In this document: positions 38,474-56,708 of the stretch, piece after piece | Layout: every line of letters begins with the position of its first letter | How positions within the stretch are numbered: the first letter of the stretch is position 1 | Assembly: GCF_003073375.1 (NCBI RefSeq) | Contig: NZ_CP029002.1 | Location: forward strand, 358,001-422,000 | Direction of reading: 5' to 3' | Length of the DNA: 64,000 bases | Origin: Lysinibacillus sp. 2017 | GTDB lineage: Bacteria; Bacillota; Bacilli; Bacillales_A; Planococcaceae | Notes under the pieces: model-generated | What the model was told of the DNA's origin: nothing | What the model saw: the letters and a program-made list of their open reading frames with translations, nothing else | Database searches by the model: none | Translations under genes and position numbers: made by a program

Positions 38474-38735
38474 GTGTTGCAAGCAAAGGCGCCGTTTGTT
38501 TAATAGAACGAATCTGCTAAATATAGTGAGGCAAGGGAATTGTCATAGCTAGTCCTATTTAAGGGGCTAAGGAAGTGTATGGGGTTTGGCGGGCTAAGTG
38601 CATGAATCGCACAGCTTTGTTGCACAAATCTGTACGACTCATCTTTGCGCTTTATGCAAAGCCTGCCAAATAAGGCATAGTCTATTAAATTGTGTTTAAA
38701 GAAGTAAGGCACTGTTGCAAGCAAAGGCGCCGTTC
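38474..38735 (+). repeat. Structured repeat, single A-type unit
   Basis: GTTGCAAGCAAAGGCGCCGTT occurs at 38476-38496 and 38714-38734 (period 238). Between them is a long hairpin (38585-38670) with outer arms TTTGGCGGGC / GCCTGCCAAA, a GTTGCAC loop and TGTACGACTC. This is the same family as the array at 54065-55560. It is non-coding. Confidence 0.8.
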
Positions 38736-38810
38736 ATAAATAAAATGAATTTGCTAAATAAAGCAATTGAAATGCAGTGATAATACCTTAATCATTTACA
38801 TAGGAATAGC

Positions 38811-39400
38811 TATTTTTTTTAGAAGACCGCGCCTTGCTTAGCATAGCGCCTACGGTATTTTAAAAAGGTTGGTAAAGACACACCTGATATCGGCGGGCCT
38901 TACACACAGCACAAAGAACATTCGCGAAAGACTCTGCAAAGAGGCTTTGTGAATGTGTGCTGAGCCCGCCGAATGACTATCCCCAAATCCCCACTATTTT
39001 AGAAGGAAATGCTTTGATATATAGAAAAACCTGCGCCTTGCGATAGCACAGCGCCTACGATATTTAAAAAGGTTGGTAAAGACACACCTGATATCGGCGG
39101 GCCTTACACACAGCACAAAGAACATTCGCGAAAGACTCTGCAAAGAGGCTTTGTGAATGTGTGCTGAGCCTGCCGAATGATTATCCCGAAATATCCACTA
39201 TTTTAGAAGGAAATGCTTTGATATATAGAAAAACCTGCGCCTTGCGATAGCACAGCGCCTACGATATTTAAAAAGGTTGGTAAAGACACACCTGATATCG
39301 GCGGGCCTTACACACAGCACAAAGAACATTCGCGAAAGACTCTGCAAAGAGGCTTTGTGAATGTGTGCTGAGCCCGCCAAATGACTACCCCAAATCCCAC
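38811..39400 (-). repeat. Three tandem 204-bp structured repeats (D type)
   Basis: The string AAAAAGGTTGGTAAAGACA starts at 38862, 39066 and 39270, an exact 204-bp period. Each unit has a hairpin with outer stem GGCGGGCC / GAGCCCGCC and long inner stem CAGCACA...CATTCGCGAAAG / CTTTGTGAATG...TGTGCTG, plus a smaller GCGCC...AGCGC hairpin. The reverse complement ends TTCTTTGTGCTGTGTGTAAG, then GCCCGCC, as in A-type units, so these lie in opposite orientation. No gene is credible in 38262-39486. Confidence 0.85.
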
Positions 39401-39439
39401 TTTATTAGAAAAACAAGCATTTATGAAGTTGCCCAATAG

Positions 39440-54033: not shown

Positions 54034-54066
54034 AAAAAAGGCCATCACAATTTGTGGTGGCTTTTG
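54034..54066 (+). terminator. Terminator of aminotransferase gene
   Basis: Stem AAAAGGCCATCACA / TGTGGTGGCTTTT, four bases after the stop codon. Confidence 0.8.
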
Positions 54067-55560
54067 AATTTAGCAAAGGGATTGTCAGAGCTAGTCATCT
54101 TCTAATAGAGATGTTATGAAAGTGTATCATGTATTGGCAGGCTGGGCGCCCAGAGTCGCAAAGATATGTTGCACATATCTGTACGACTCTTCTTTGCGCC
54201 TTAGGCTAGGCCTGCCAAATCAAAGGATAGTCAATTCTACTTTTGCATGTATTCAGGGGCGGCGCTGTTGGCGAGCAAAGGCGCCGTTTTTCTTTAAAGC
54301 GAGTCCGTTGAATTTTGTGGGTTGAAGGGATTGTCAGAGCTTAATCATCTTCTAATAGTGATGTAATTAAAGTGTATCGTGTTTTGGCAGGCTGGGCGCC
54401 CAGAGTCGCAAAGATATGTTGCACATATCTGTACGACTCTTCTTTGCGCCTTGGGCTAGGCCTGCCAAATCAAAGTGTAATCCATTATGCTTTTGCATGT
54501 ATTCAGGGGCGGCGCTGTTGGCGAGCAAAGGCGCCGTTTTTCTTTAAAGTGAGTCTGTTGAATTTATGGGTTGAAAGGATTGTCAGAGCTTAATCATTTT
54601 CTAATAGAGATGTTATGAAAGTGTATCGGTTTTTGGCAGGCTGGGCGCCCAGAGTCGCAAAGATATGTTGCACATATCTGTACGACTCTTCTTTGCGCCT
54701 TGTGCTAGGCCTGCCAAATCAAAGTGTAATCCATTATGCCTTTGCATGTATTCGGGTGCGGCGCTGTTGGCGAGCAAAGGCGCCGTTTACTTTTAAAGTG
54801 AGTCCTTTGAATTTTGTGGGTTGAAGGGATTGTCAAACTAGTCATCTTCTAATAGAGATGTTATGAAAGTGTATTGGGTTTTGGCAGGCTGGGCGCCAGA
54901 GTCGCAAAGATATGTTGCACATATCTGTACGACTCTTCTTTGCGCCTTGTGCTAGGCCTGCCAAATCAAAGGATAGTCCATTCTGCTTTTGCATGTATTC
55001 AGGGGCGGCGCTGTTGACGAGCAAAGGCGCTGTTTACTTTTAAAGCGAGTCCGTTGAATTTGGTGGGCTGAAGGTATTGTCAGAGCTAGTCAAATTCAAA
55101 TAAATATTCTATTAAGGTGTTTCGTATTTTGGCAGGCGACCGCATATCAGCAGCAGGGTCACGTGGTACGTGTCCCTACTACTGATACTGTTGCGGTATG
55201 CTAGGCCTGCCAAATCAAAGGATAGTCGATTCTACTTTTACATGTATTCAGGTGCGGCGCTGTTGACGAGCAAAGGCGCCGTTTTTCTTTAAAACGAGTC
55301 CGTTGAATTTTGAGCAAGGGGATTGTCAGAGCTAGTCAATTTCATAAATATTCTATGAAGGTGTTTCGTATTTTGGCAGGCGACCGCATATCAGCAGCAG
55401 GGTCACGTGGTACGTGTCCCTACTACTGATACTGTTGCGGTATGCTAGGCCTGCCAAATCAAAGGATAGTCGATTCTACTTTTGCTTGTATTCAGGTGCG
55501 GCGCTGTTGGCGAGCAAAGGCGCCGTTTACTTTTAAAGGAGTCCGTTGAATTAAGTGAGA
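54065..55560 (+). repeat. Six tandem ~248-bp structured repeats (A and B types)
   Basis: Outer-stem hairpins TTGGCAGGC...GCCTGCCAA lie at 54134-54218, 54384-54468, 54633-54717, 54881-54964, 55129-55213 and 55373-55457, a 244-250 bp period. Each is followed by GGCGCTGTTGRCGAGCAAAG then GCGCCGTT or GCGCTGTT, a second hairpin. The first four carry an A-type interior (GAGTCG...ATATGTTGCACATAT...CGACTC); the last two carry a different B-type interior (GACCGCATATCAG...CTGATACTGTTGCGGT). Short open frames inside repeat with the units and look like by-products. No SD or family supports coding. Confidence 0.88.
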
Positions 55561-55737
55561 AAGGGACTGCCACAGATTCTCTTTTTATAAAGGGATGAAT
55601 ATACGGATAGGGTTCAATAGTTGTCAATGCCTTCATTTTCTATAATGGCAGGATTGCCTTTTCTACTAAAACTCTAGATAAATGAGTTCACAGTATTTAG
55701 ATGATAAATAAATACATTGTAATTTTACCTATTTTAT
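55561..55737. other. Gap between repeat arrays
   Basis: AT-rich, with a degenerate repeat end (ATGGCAGGATTGCC, about 55644-55657). No gene seen. Confidence 0.4.
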
Positions 55738-56228
55738 AAAAAGATTCGCCTAATAAAAAGACTGGCGCCTACCACTGTAAGCGCCAGCACGTGAATATAA
55801 GTAAAAGGAAAATGGATACACCTTATATTGGCAGGTCTTTCACGAAGCACAAAGGCGAGTCGTACAGGCATGTGCAACATGGCTGTGCGGCTTGCGTGCG
55901 AAGAACCTGCCAAAAATGACTACACCTGAATAACCTTTTCATTAGAAGACCGTAAGAGGCTTTGTGAATGTGTGCTGCGCCCGCCCAAACGAAACACCCG
56001 AATACCCCTATAACAAAGGATGAATTCACTATGATAAACCCTACTGTATAAAAAGATTCACCCAATAAAAAGACTGGCGCCTACCACTGTAAGCGCCAGC
56101 ATGTGAATACAAGCAAAAGGAAAATGGATACACCAAGTATTGGCGGGTCTTTCACGAAGCACAAAGGCGAGTCGTACAGACATGTGCAACATGGCTGTGC
56201 GGCTTGCGTGCGAAGAACCCGCCAAATG
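55738..56228 (-). repeat. Two inverted-orientation structured repeats (C type), period 311 bp
   Basis: Copies at about 55738-55915 and 56049-56228 share a GCGCC-rich hairpin (CTGGCGC...GCGCCAG) and an 85-nt hairpin at 55829-55913 and 56140-56225. Outer stems are GGCAGGT/ACCTGCC in one and GGCGGGT/ACCCGCC in the other, a compensatory change. Their reverse complement contains ATGTTGCACAT and CTGTACGACTC, as in A-type units, so they are the same family on the other strand. Between them (about 55943-55985) lies the 3' half of a D-type hairpin. Confidence 0.85.
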
Positions 56229-56334
56229 ACTACACCCGAATAACCACTTTAATATATCCAACTTTATTAGAGAAAGAATGAATTTAATGAAAGAAGCTTT
56301 ACAATGTTACACTCCAGTGGCGAATTAAATGCAT

Positions 56335-56372
56335 AAAAAAAAGAGGCATACTCGTTTGAGTATGCCTCTTTC
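56335..56372 (-). terminator. Terminator of cold-shock gene
   Basis: Stem AAAGAGGCATACTC / GAGTATGCCTCTTT with a 4-nt loop; the T run follows on the minus strand. Confidence 0.88.
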
Positions 56373-56403
56373 CAGCTAACTATCTGAACTTAATTCGTTG
56401 GAA

Positions 56404-56604
56404 TTAAAGTTTTGTTACGTTAGTAGCTTGTGGTCCACGGTTACCGTCTTCCACTTCGAATTCAACTTTTTGACCTTCGTCTAAAGATTTGAATCCTTCA
56501 CCTTGGATAGCTGAGAAGTGAACGAATACGTCGTTACCGCCTTCAACTTCGATGAAACCGAAACCTTTTTCTGAGTTAAACCATTTTACTGTACCTTGTT
56601 GCAT
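56404..56604 (-). CDS. Cold-shock protein (CspA/CspB family)
   Basis: 66 residues, a single cold-shock domain. RNP1 KGFGFIEV and RNP2 [10 protein letters not shown] bind single-stranded RNA and DNA; the start is [16 protein letters not shown]. It acts as an RNA chaperone. SD TTGGAGG precedes the ATG on the minus strand. The gene has a long AT-rich upstream region with a very stable hairpin at 56657-56708, probably in the 5' UTR, which fits cold-regulated translation. Confidence 0.96.
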
Positions 56605-56656
56605 GAGAGAAAACCTCCAAAAATAAATTAAATTAATTTGCTAAATGTATAAAAAA

Positions 56657-56708
56657 ATTCACACATTAAAAAAGGGAGCGTAGACGTTCACTTTTTTAAT
56701 ATGTGAAT
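56657..56708 (-). promoter_or_regulatory. Long hairpin in the likely 5' UTR of the csp gene
   Basis: Arms of 18 bp (ATTCACA.ATTAAAAAAG and complement, one G-U) with a ~16-nt loop containing TGAACGTCTACGCTCC, 53 bp upstream of the start codon. The stem is almost all A-U, so its stability should depend strongly on temperature. Confidence 0.55.

Follow-up and report, generated by a model that had tools for sequence, protein, structure and literature searches.

Among the palindromic repeats of bacteria, REP elements and BIMEs are the best studied. One account ties them to a known transposase partner and describes extragenic palindromic units that occur in composite arrays, in opposite orientations and with tandem repetition (PMC2817692). 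Bacterial MITEs such as bcr1-bcr3, RUP, ERIC and NEMIS are portrayed as intergenic, non-coding and hairpin-forming sequences that reach high copy number in one lineage (PMC3446304, PMC3733652). Here, we describe a repeat of Lysinibacillus sp. 2017 that appears to be a new relative, of unusual size, of the known bacterial palindromic repeats. By analogy, its nearest known kinds appear to be REP/BIMEs and bacterial MITEs. The open-licence part of the PMC literature yielded no description of it, and absence there is no proof.

The repeat was found in the window, the whole 64,000-nucleotide stretch of DNA that was analysed. An initial annotation had described six tandem units of about 248 bp, in which a constant frame with a common outer stem and a second GGCGC/GCGCC hairpin carries one of two exchangeable inner hairpins of nearly equal length, the first in units 1-4 and the other in units 5-6. 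This description holds in every part. Tandem Repeats Finder (TRF) returns a period of 249 with 6.0 copies and 89% matches at 54076-55552, and the starts of consecutive units (A units) lie 247-249 bp apart. The outer stem TTGGCAGGC/GCCTGCCAA is found in 6/6 A units, and the second hairpin in all six, with one mismatch in unit 4. The inner hairpins span 80-81 nt in units 1-4 (alpha core, loop TGTTGCACA) and 81 nt in units 5-6 (beta core, CACGTGGTACGTG core). Absent from that annotation were a minus-strand array facing the first at 55740-56277, an island at 38475-39409, and a genome-wide family. The tandem array is one half, the left arm, of a larger composite structure in which A units and B units point towards a centre from opposite sides. 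Its parts in the window are as follows.

54075-55558, plus strand: A array of six units (54075-54320, 54324-54569, 54573-54819, 54822-55066, 55069-55313 and 55316-55558), from nhmmer with the unit alignment, TRF and alignment
54133-54219, plus strand: large hairpin (HP1) of unit 1, alpha core, with the other alpha HP1s at 54383-54469, 54632-54718 and 54880-54965, from covariance model R1 and a palindrome scan
54258-54287, plus strand: short hairpin (HP2) of unit 1, GGCGC..GCGCC and then a T run, recurring in units 2-6, from sequence and conservation (0.957-0.964)
55128-55214, plus strand: HP1 of unit 5, beta core, with that of unit 6 at 55372-55458, from the palindrome scan
55559-55739, no strand: centre between the facing arrays, 181 bp, belonging to the same family as 13 other island centres
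55740-56277, minus strand: B array, a pair of related units that point at the A array (55740-55949 and 56092-56277), from nhmmer
55761-55788, minus strand: HP2 of the inner B unit, loop TTACAGTGGTA and then CTTTTTATT, with a second at 56073-56100, from a terminator-like scan
55827-55914, minus strand: HP1 of the inner B unit, with the outer B HP1 at 56139-56226, from the palindrome scan and R1
38475-38758, plus strand: A side of the window's second island, made up of one incomplete unit and another that has diverged (HP1 38585-38670)
38822-39409, minus strand: B side of the second island, three units of about 204 bp with a gamma core, from TRF, nhmmer and the palindrome scan

Each A unit runs from an AT-rich leader through HP1 and a linker to the short, GC-rich HP2. 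The A and B units share a single design, of which they are distantly related copies: a TTCTAAT-type leader is followed by HP1 (about 80-88 nt), then by a linker (about 40-50 nt) and finally by HP2. Both units that were folded do so better than their dinucleotide shuffles (unit 1, z -2.4, with 1/200 shuffles as good; unit 5, z -2.9, with 0/200). The terminator-like scan flagged HP2 in units 1, 2, 3 and 6. A general role of HP2 as an intrinsic terminator was rejected, as its T run is present in the window and missing from several relatives. Directly adjoining the island is a match to the cspA thermoregulator (RF01766, 92.4 bits) at 56339-56675 on the minus strand. Elsewhere in the window, a 39-bp tandem repeat of 24.6 copies at 424-1357 appears coding-like by eye, one frame of its consensus reading EVTPEEPETN.

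The repeat is present at about two dozen intergenic places in its genome (G000). A single unit gives 136 BLAST matches there, and R1 finds at least 135 at E<=1e-4, a count that beta cores may escape, R1 having been built from alpha-type hairpins. In 18 stretches around the own-genome matches plus the window, 178 non-overlapping nhmmer hits form 28 clusters. Units face each other in 24 of these; the remaining four comprise one cluster of B units only, one of A units only, and two single hits. Positions in G000 are strongly non-random, which simple transposition does not predict. The gene dnaA lies at base 487 of the 3.74-Mb contig, which therefore begins at the origin. The BLAST matches listed all fall 0.27-0.95 Mb to the right of dnaA or 0.48-0.80 Mb to its left (0.27-0.95 and 2.93-3.26 Mb in contig coordinates), and none of those listed is in the terminus half. 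We give no p-value for these origin-proximal arcs, since the pattern emerged in retrospect and one island cannot be counted as independent of another.

With REP/BIMEs, this family shares more than 100 extragenic palindrome copies, composite arrays, opposite orientations and tandem repetition. It differs in scale and arrangement: the palindrome is 20-40 bp in REP elements and about 80-88 nt in HP1, and the units here are of about 250 bp and form two inward-pointing arrays rather than alternating. A short REP-sized palindrome is lacking, as HP1 measures 73-82 nt between stem cores in the own genome, and HP2, at about 29 nt, is merely part of the unit. Further, REP/BIMEs have a RAYT partner, and the IS200/RAYT partner suggested in the initial annotation did not materialise, a search of G000 for the Y1 (RAYT-type) transposase domain PF01797 giving no match; PF01797 is matched in 9/16 genus genomes. 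With MITEs, the family shares non-coding, dispersed and hairpin-forming copies in intergenic sites. It differs from them in having two facing tandem arms around a common centre, and in the weakness of its terminal inverted similarity, which among the 17 islands for which it was computed reached p<0.05 against shuffles in ten and not in seven. Bacillaceae-1 RNA (RF01690) is likewise a dispersed hairpin repeat of the same genomes (16/16 genus genomes, 3 to 107 matches in each and 13 in the window's genome), but is a separate family with no gathering-level match inside the window array. Its role as a facing partner in the genus relative G011, suspected from locus L047, was discarded after 20 G011 loci gave no gathering-level match. 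Pneumococcal BOX elements are modular repeats with fixed ends and a variable interior. Likened by description, they differ in that the BOX interior is repeated, whereas that of the present repeat is replaced. We do not file the family under REP/BIMEs, on account of its palindrome size and the missing Y1 transposase, or under MITEs, for which terminal repeats, target duplication and an autonomous partner give a mixed picture. A Bacillales family with facing-arm islands, swappable cores and hairpin constraint, yet no RAYT-type gene in its richest genome, offers a clean system for asking what sustains bacterial hairpin repeats: selfish copying, gene conversion or host function.

Islands are copied as units, as follows from both full-length alignment and the kinship of their centres. 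The window island (54073-56253) aligns through arms and centre, at 88.5% identity, with an island 97 kb away at 508.9 kb, which continues with extra B units beyond the alignment; the A arms of both have the core order aaaabb. Among 21 centres compared, 14 belong to one family, three to a second and two to a third. This comparison left out islands L003, the first of L005 and L008, as well as the four clusters without facing units. Local scores within the 14-centre family range from 31 to 191, whereas the highest among 60 shuffled pairs is 22.5. Scored against the same family, the remaining centres give borderline values of 20-30 (L005) and at most 34 (the second of L001).

Cores move between frames. 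Core order differs among the 16 arms of full-length A units (aaaabb, ababbb, aabbb?abaa and others), and frames are alike whatever core they carry: frame similarity between different arrays is 0.844 for alpha-beta pairs and 0.853 for alpha-alpha pairs, and slightly higher, 0.874, within one array. A constant frame with an exchangeable core is thus the right description of these arms. The movement would represent recombination or conversion, a mechanism that we infer. Two B units of L013 (5917-6050 and 6690-6820) have a further core, a GTGACTGTCGCTTCGCTTTCGTCAC-like hairpin, with a second nested palindrome, GATAATGTCACAA/TTGTGACATTATC.

Both hairpins are conserved far beyond the DNA around them, with 96-99% pairwise identity compared with 81-87% in the remainder of the unit. 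In 44 of 48 alpha units (four divergent units were left out, as was one without a classifiable core), mean pairwise identity is 0.975 for HP1 and 0.957 for HP2, and 0.854, 0.875 and 0.843 for leader, linker and tail. In 23 beta units, the values are 0.986 and 0.964, against 0.813-0.874 outside the hairpins. When nearest pairs are compared (35, all independent), the fraction of differing sites is 0.027 in HP1, 0.042 in HP2 and 0.087-0.104 in the three non-hairpin segments. The constraint on HP1 persists in the 16 closest pairs (21/1357, or 0.0155, against 113/2165 in the non-hairpin segments, or 0.044-0.059), and is consequently recent and acts on individual copies. HP2 is again intermediate (16/447, or 0.036), and in these pairs it seems only mildly constrained. 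Either purifying selection or hairpin-specific conversion can account for the constraint on HP1.

In the aligned sequences, the predicted large hairpin HP1 also covaries across genera. The initial annotation had named a lack of structural covariation as grounds against its proposal, and the opposite was found. We aligned 47 distinct HP1s, chosen by hand from retrieved loci and covering three of the four genera (own, Lysinibacillus and g7). Of their cells, 91.1% pair, compared with 77.0% after shuffling; two-sided changes occur in 20 of the 29 pairs and amount to 201 cells (56.7 shuffled). The covariation score is 0.409, compared with 0.138 for shuffles, 0/500 of which matched it, and with just 0.039-0.092 for slid structures. 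The count of further pair types in this set (35) does not exceed that of shuffles (38.1). Outer-stem variants with matching partners include TTGGCAGG, TTGGCGGG, GTGAGCGG, GTGAGAGG and TAGGCTGG.

Such covariation, together with the uniformity of cores, might be a by-product of DNA metabolism with no selected function, in which imperfect palindromes are corrected by template switching and copies are homogenised by gene conversion. Template-switch mutation at quasipalindromes has been described, and in that account could make the arms of an imperfect palindrome covary (PMC7202029). Changes on the unit strand are in keeping with this, being mostly from one Watson-Crick pair to another and seldom one-sided (201 against 9 cells). 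We nevertheless regard a pure by-product as distinctly improbable: it leaves unexplained the loop bases and fixed-position mismatches conserved across genera, and the better conservation of HP2 than of linkers in all copies.

Covariation could also reflect RNA, with each unit making a small structured transcript read from HP2 towards HP1, in the direction leading away from the island centre. In the inner stems of the 47 HP1s, A-C outnumbers G-T on the sense strand by 52 to 6. As A-C on the unit strand is G-U on the other, the opposite strand would be the RNA. Predicted RNA folding is likewise better on the opposite strand in 8/8 distinct beta hairpins, 26/45 own alpha, 5/8 gamma and 39/58 related alpha hairpins. 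However, three column pairs account for 47 of the 52 inner A-C cells, which are largely common by descent, and the outer stem has no strand bias, with G-T and A-C counts, which include some wrongly anchored stems ('other' cells), of 23 and 28 in 147 own copies and of 12 and 10 in 61 relatives. HP2 with the TTACAGTGGTA loop leans by eye to the opposite strand from HP1. As a test of RNA against DNA, the strand comparison was thus set aside as mixed. The outer stem covaries without strand bias, so hairpin covariation by itself does not prove RNA. Promoter-like sites show no excess (7, against 5.9 in shuffles), and the spacing of the best of them, on the minus strand of the centre, is not kept in all islands. 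A catalogued family, which the initial annotation had held would count against it, did not emerge: neither the array nor 20 G011 loci has a gathering-level Rfam match. In 12 loci of relatives searched at E<=5, the sole overlapping match was to the plant microRNA model MIR403 (in L029; 23.2 of the 70 bits needed, E 2.3), a chance-level overlap, and membership of an Rfam family was rejected. On balance, we consider a structured RNA unlikely.

The distribution of relatives is patchy. R1 matches occur in 15/16 genus genomes at E<=1e-4 (own included), ranging where present from 1 to at least 135. In a sample of the family, searched at E<=1e-5 and filtered in a way that misses weak matches, they occur in 26/200 genomes and in 4/19 genera including Lysinibacillus. 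An order-level search gave no additional genus, as the order comprised the same 19 genera. A degenerate pattern recovered 21 stretches in three Lysinibacillus species (GTDB 220). Facing units also occur at loci of the genus relatives G005, G006 and G014. Lysinibacillus endophyticus has both facing units (L030, 12588 on the plus and 13344 on the minus strand) and a tandem array (L029), and in G011 one unit is present in each of 20 retrieved stretches, all about 2 kb long.

The junction occupied by the window island provides a more local comparison. The aminotransferase gene and cspA are adjacent in 6/15 genus relatives, 136-723 bp apart, where G000 has the 2.2-kb island, and neither R1 nor the A-unit profile detects a unit in these six junctions. 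In the other 9/15, no cspA lies within 1.5 kb of the aminotransferase. A weak 44-base R1 match in L076 is upstream of the aminotransferase, outside the junction. Insertion of the island in its own lineage would be the simpler reading of these sequences, with loss as the alternative. The initial annotation had proposed looking for copies beside empty sites; island-free junctions do exist, but are too diverged to reveal a target-site duplication.

These comparisons bear on whether the host maintains the units as DNA sites that serve chromosome topology or bind a nucleoid protein, as with the gyrase-binding BIME-2 arrays of E. coli. Constraint in close as well as distant copies, the prevailing facing orientation and the two origin-proximal arcs among the matches listed would suit such a role. 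Yet G012, which has the closest aminotransferase (89%) and a 332-bp gap at the junction, has no R1 match in its genome; R1 copies within the genus range from 0 to at least 135; and the copies listed for G011 and G149 occur all along the chromosome. Nor is there a preference for convergent gene pairs, a candidate rejected on 8/29 rows in G000, where counts are rough because the ORF rule missed small genes such as cspA, and on 1/20 in G011. We judge host-kept sites of this kind to be very doubtful. A broader proposal is that facing arrays are functional chromosomal sites across a conserved centre, maintained with hardly a change in well over 100 copies and restricted in this species to two origin-proximal arcs, read by a putative protein or giving a putative RNA, and spread jointly through Lysinibacillus and relatives. 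We offer it only tentatively, as an improbable alternative.

We favour, as probable, a composite, non-autonomous BIME/MITE-like repeat with hairpins as its working parts. This overlaps with the by-product, RNA and host-site explanations, and the four are not mutually exclusive. Among the three possibilities raised initially, namely a mobile element, a structured RNA and protein-binding sites, the non-autonomous element, mobile or dispersed, gives the best fit, given the whole-island copies, the patchy distribution and the absence at the orthologous junction; the structured RNA is left without clear promoter or Rfam support. Under the mobile-element model, a whole island would spread to intergenic positions in the manner of bacterial MITEs and BIMEs, by a presumed transposition route, and each arm would lengthen or shorten by tandem duplication. 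HP1 cores would be swapped between frames, probably through recombination at the common outer stem. A putative trans-acting factor may recognise the hairpins in the form of DNA, extruded or single-stranded, or of RNA, and such recognition would keep them conserved while spacers drift. The constraint across so many copies exceeds what is expected of a purely selfish, decaying element, and gene conversion or host function could be its source. Discrete unit ends were dismissed as proof of precise insertion: the 5' flank of several islands retains part of the unit 3' tail before the first unit, and the ends are hence fuzzy.

Apart from a nested IS3-type insertion, the retrieved islands include no candidate for an autonomous copy; the genome-wide search was that for PF01797. 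In 4/28 clusters there are ORFs of 100 aa or longer: those of the IS3-type insertion, and three with no match above the Pfam cut-off. One of the three, of 276 aa in L013, plainly reads through near-identical B repeats. A phage, plasmid or viral origin was rejected, with no BLAST match containing two units in phages or plasmids and no exact pattern match in viral contigs. What had seemed a gene-bearing core in a split unit of L002 is an IS3-type OrfA/OrfB insertion (Pfam HTH_Tnp_1, rve), located at L002:3520-4985 (about 291.5-293.0 kb in G000) where it interrupts the HP1 core of a single A unit, with ACTACCCTTGG on both flanks. Separately, G000 has four equal-scoring matches to a DnaA-like ATPase in 253-aa frames (C1 615397, 775707, 2090452 and 2203180), perhaps an IS-borne ATPase, and two of the four are close to islands. 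G011 and L. antri contain a further dispersed hairpin repeat, with a CTCCTRCRGGAACAGC-like core and no gathering-level Rfam match in the G011 loci; it lies roughly 280-400 nt downstream of the HP1-HP2 unit in L037, L049, L050 and L054, in the last two as judged by eye.
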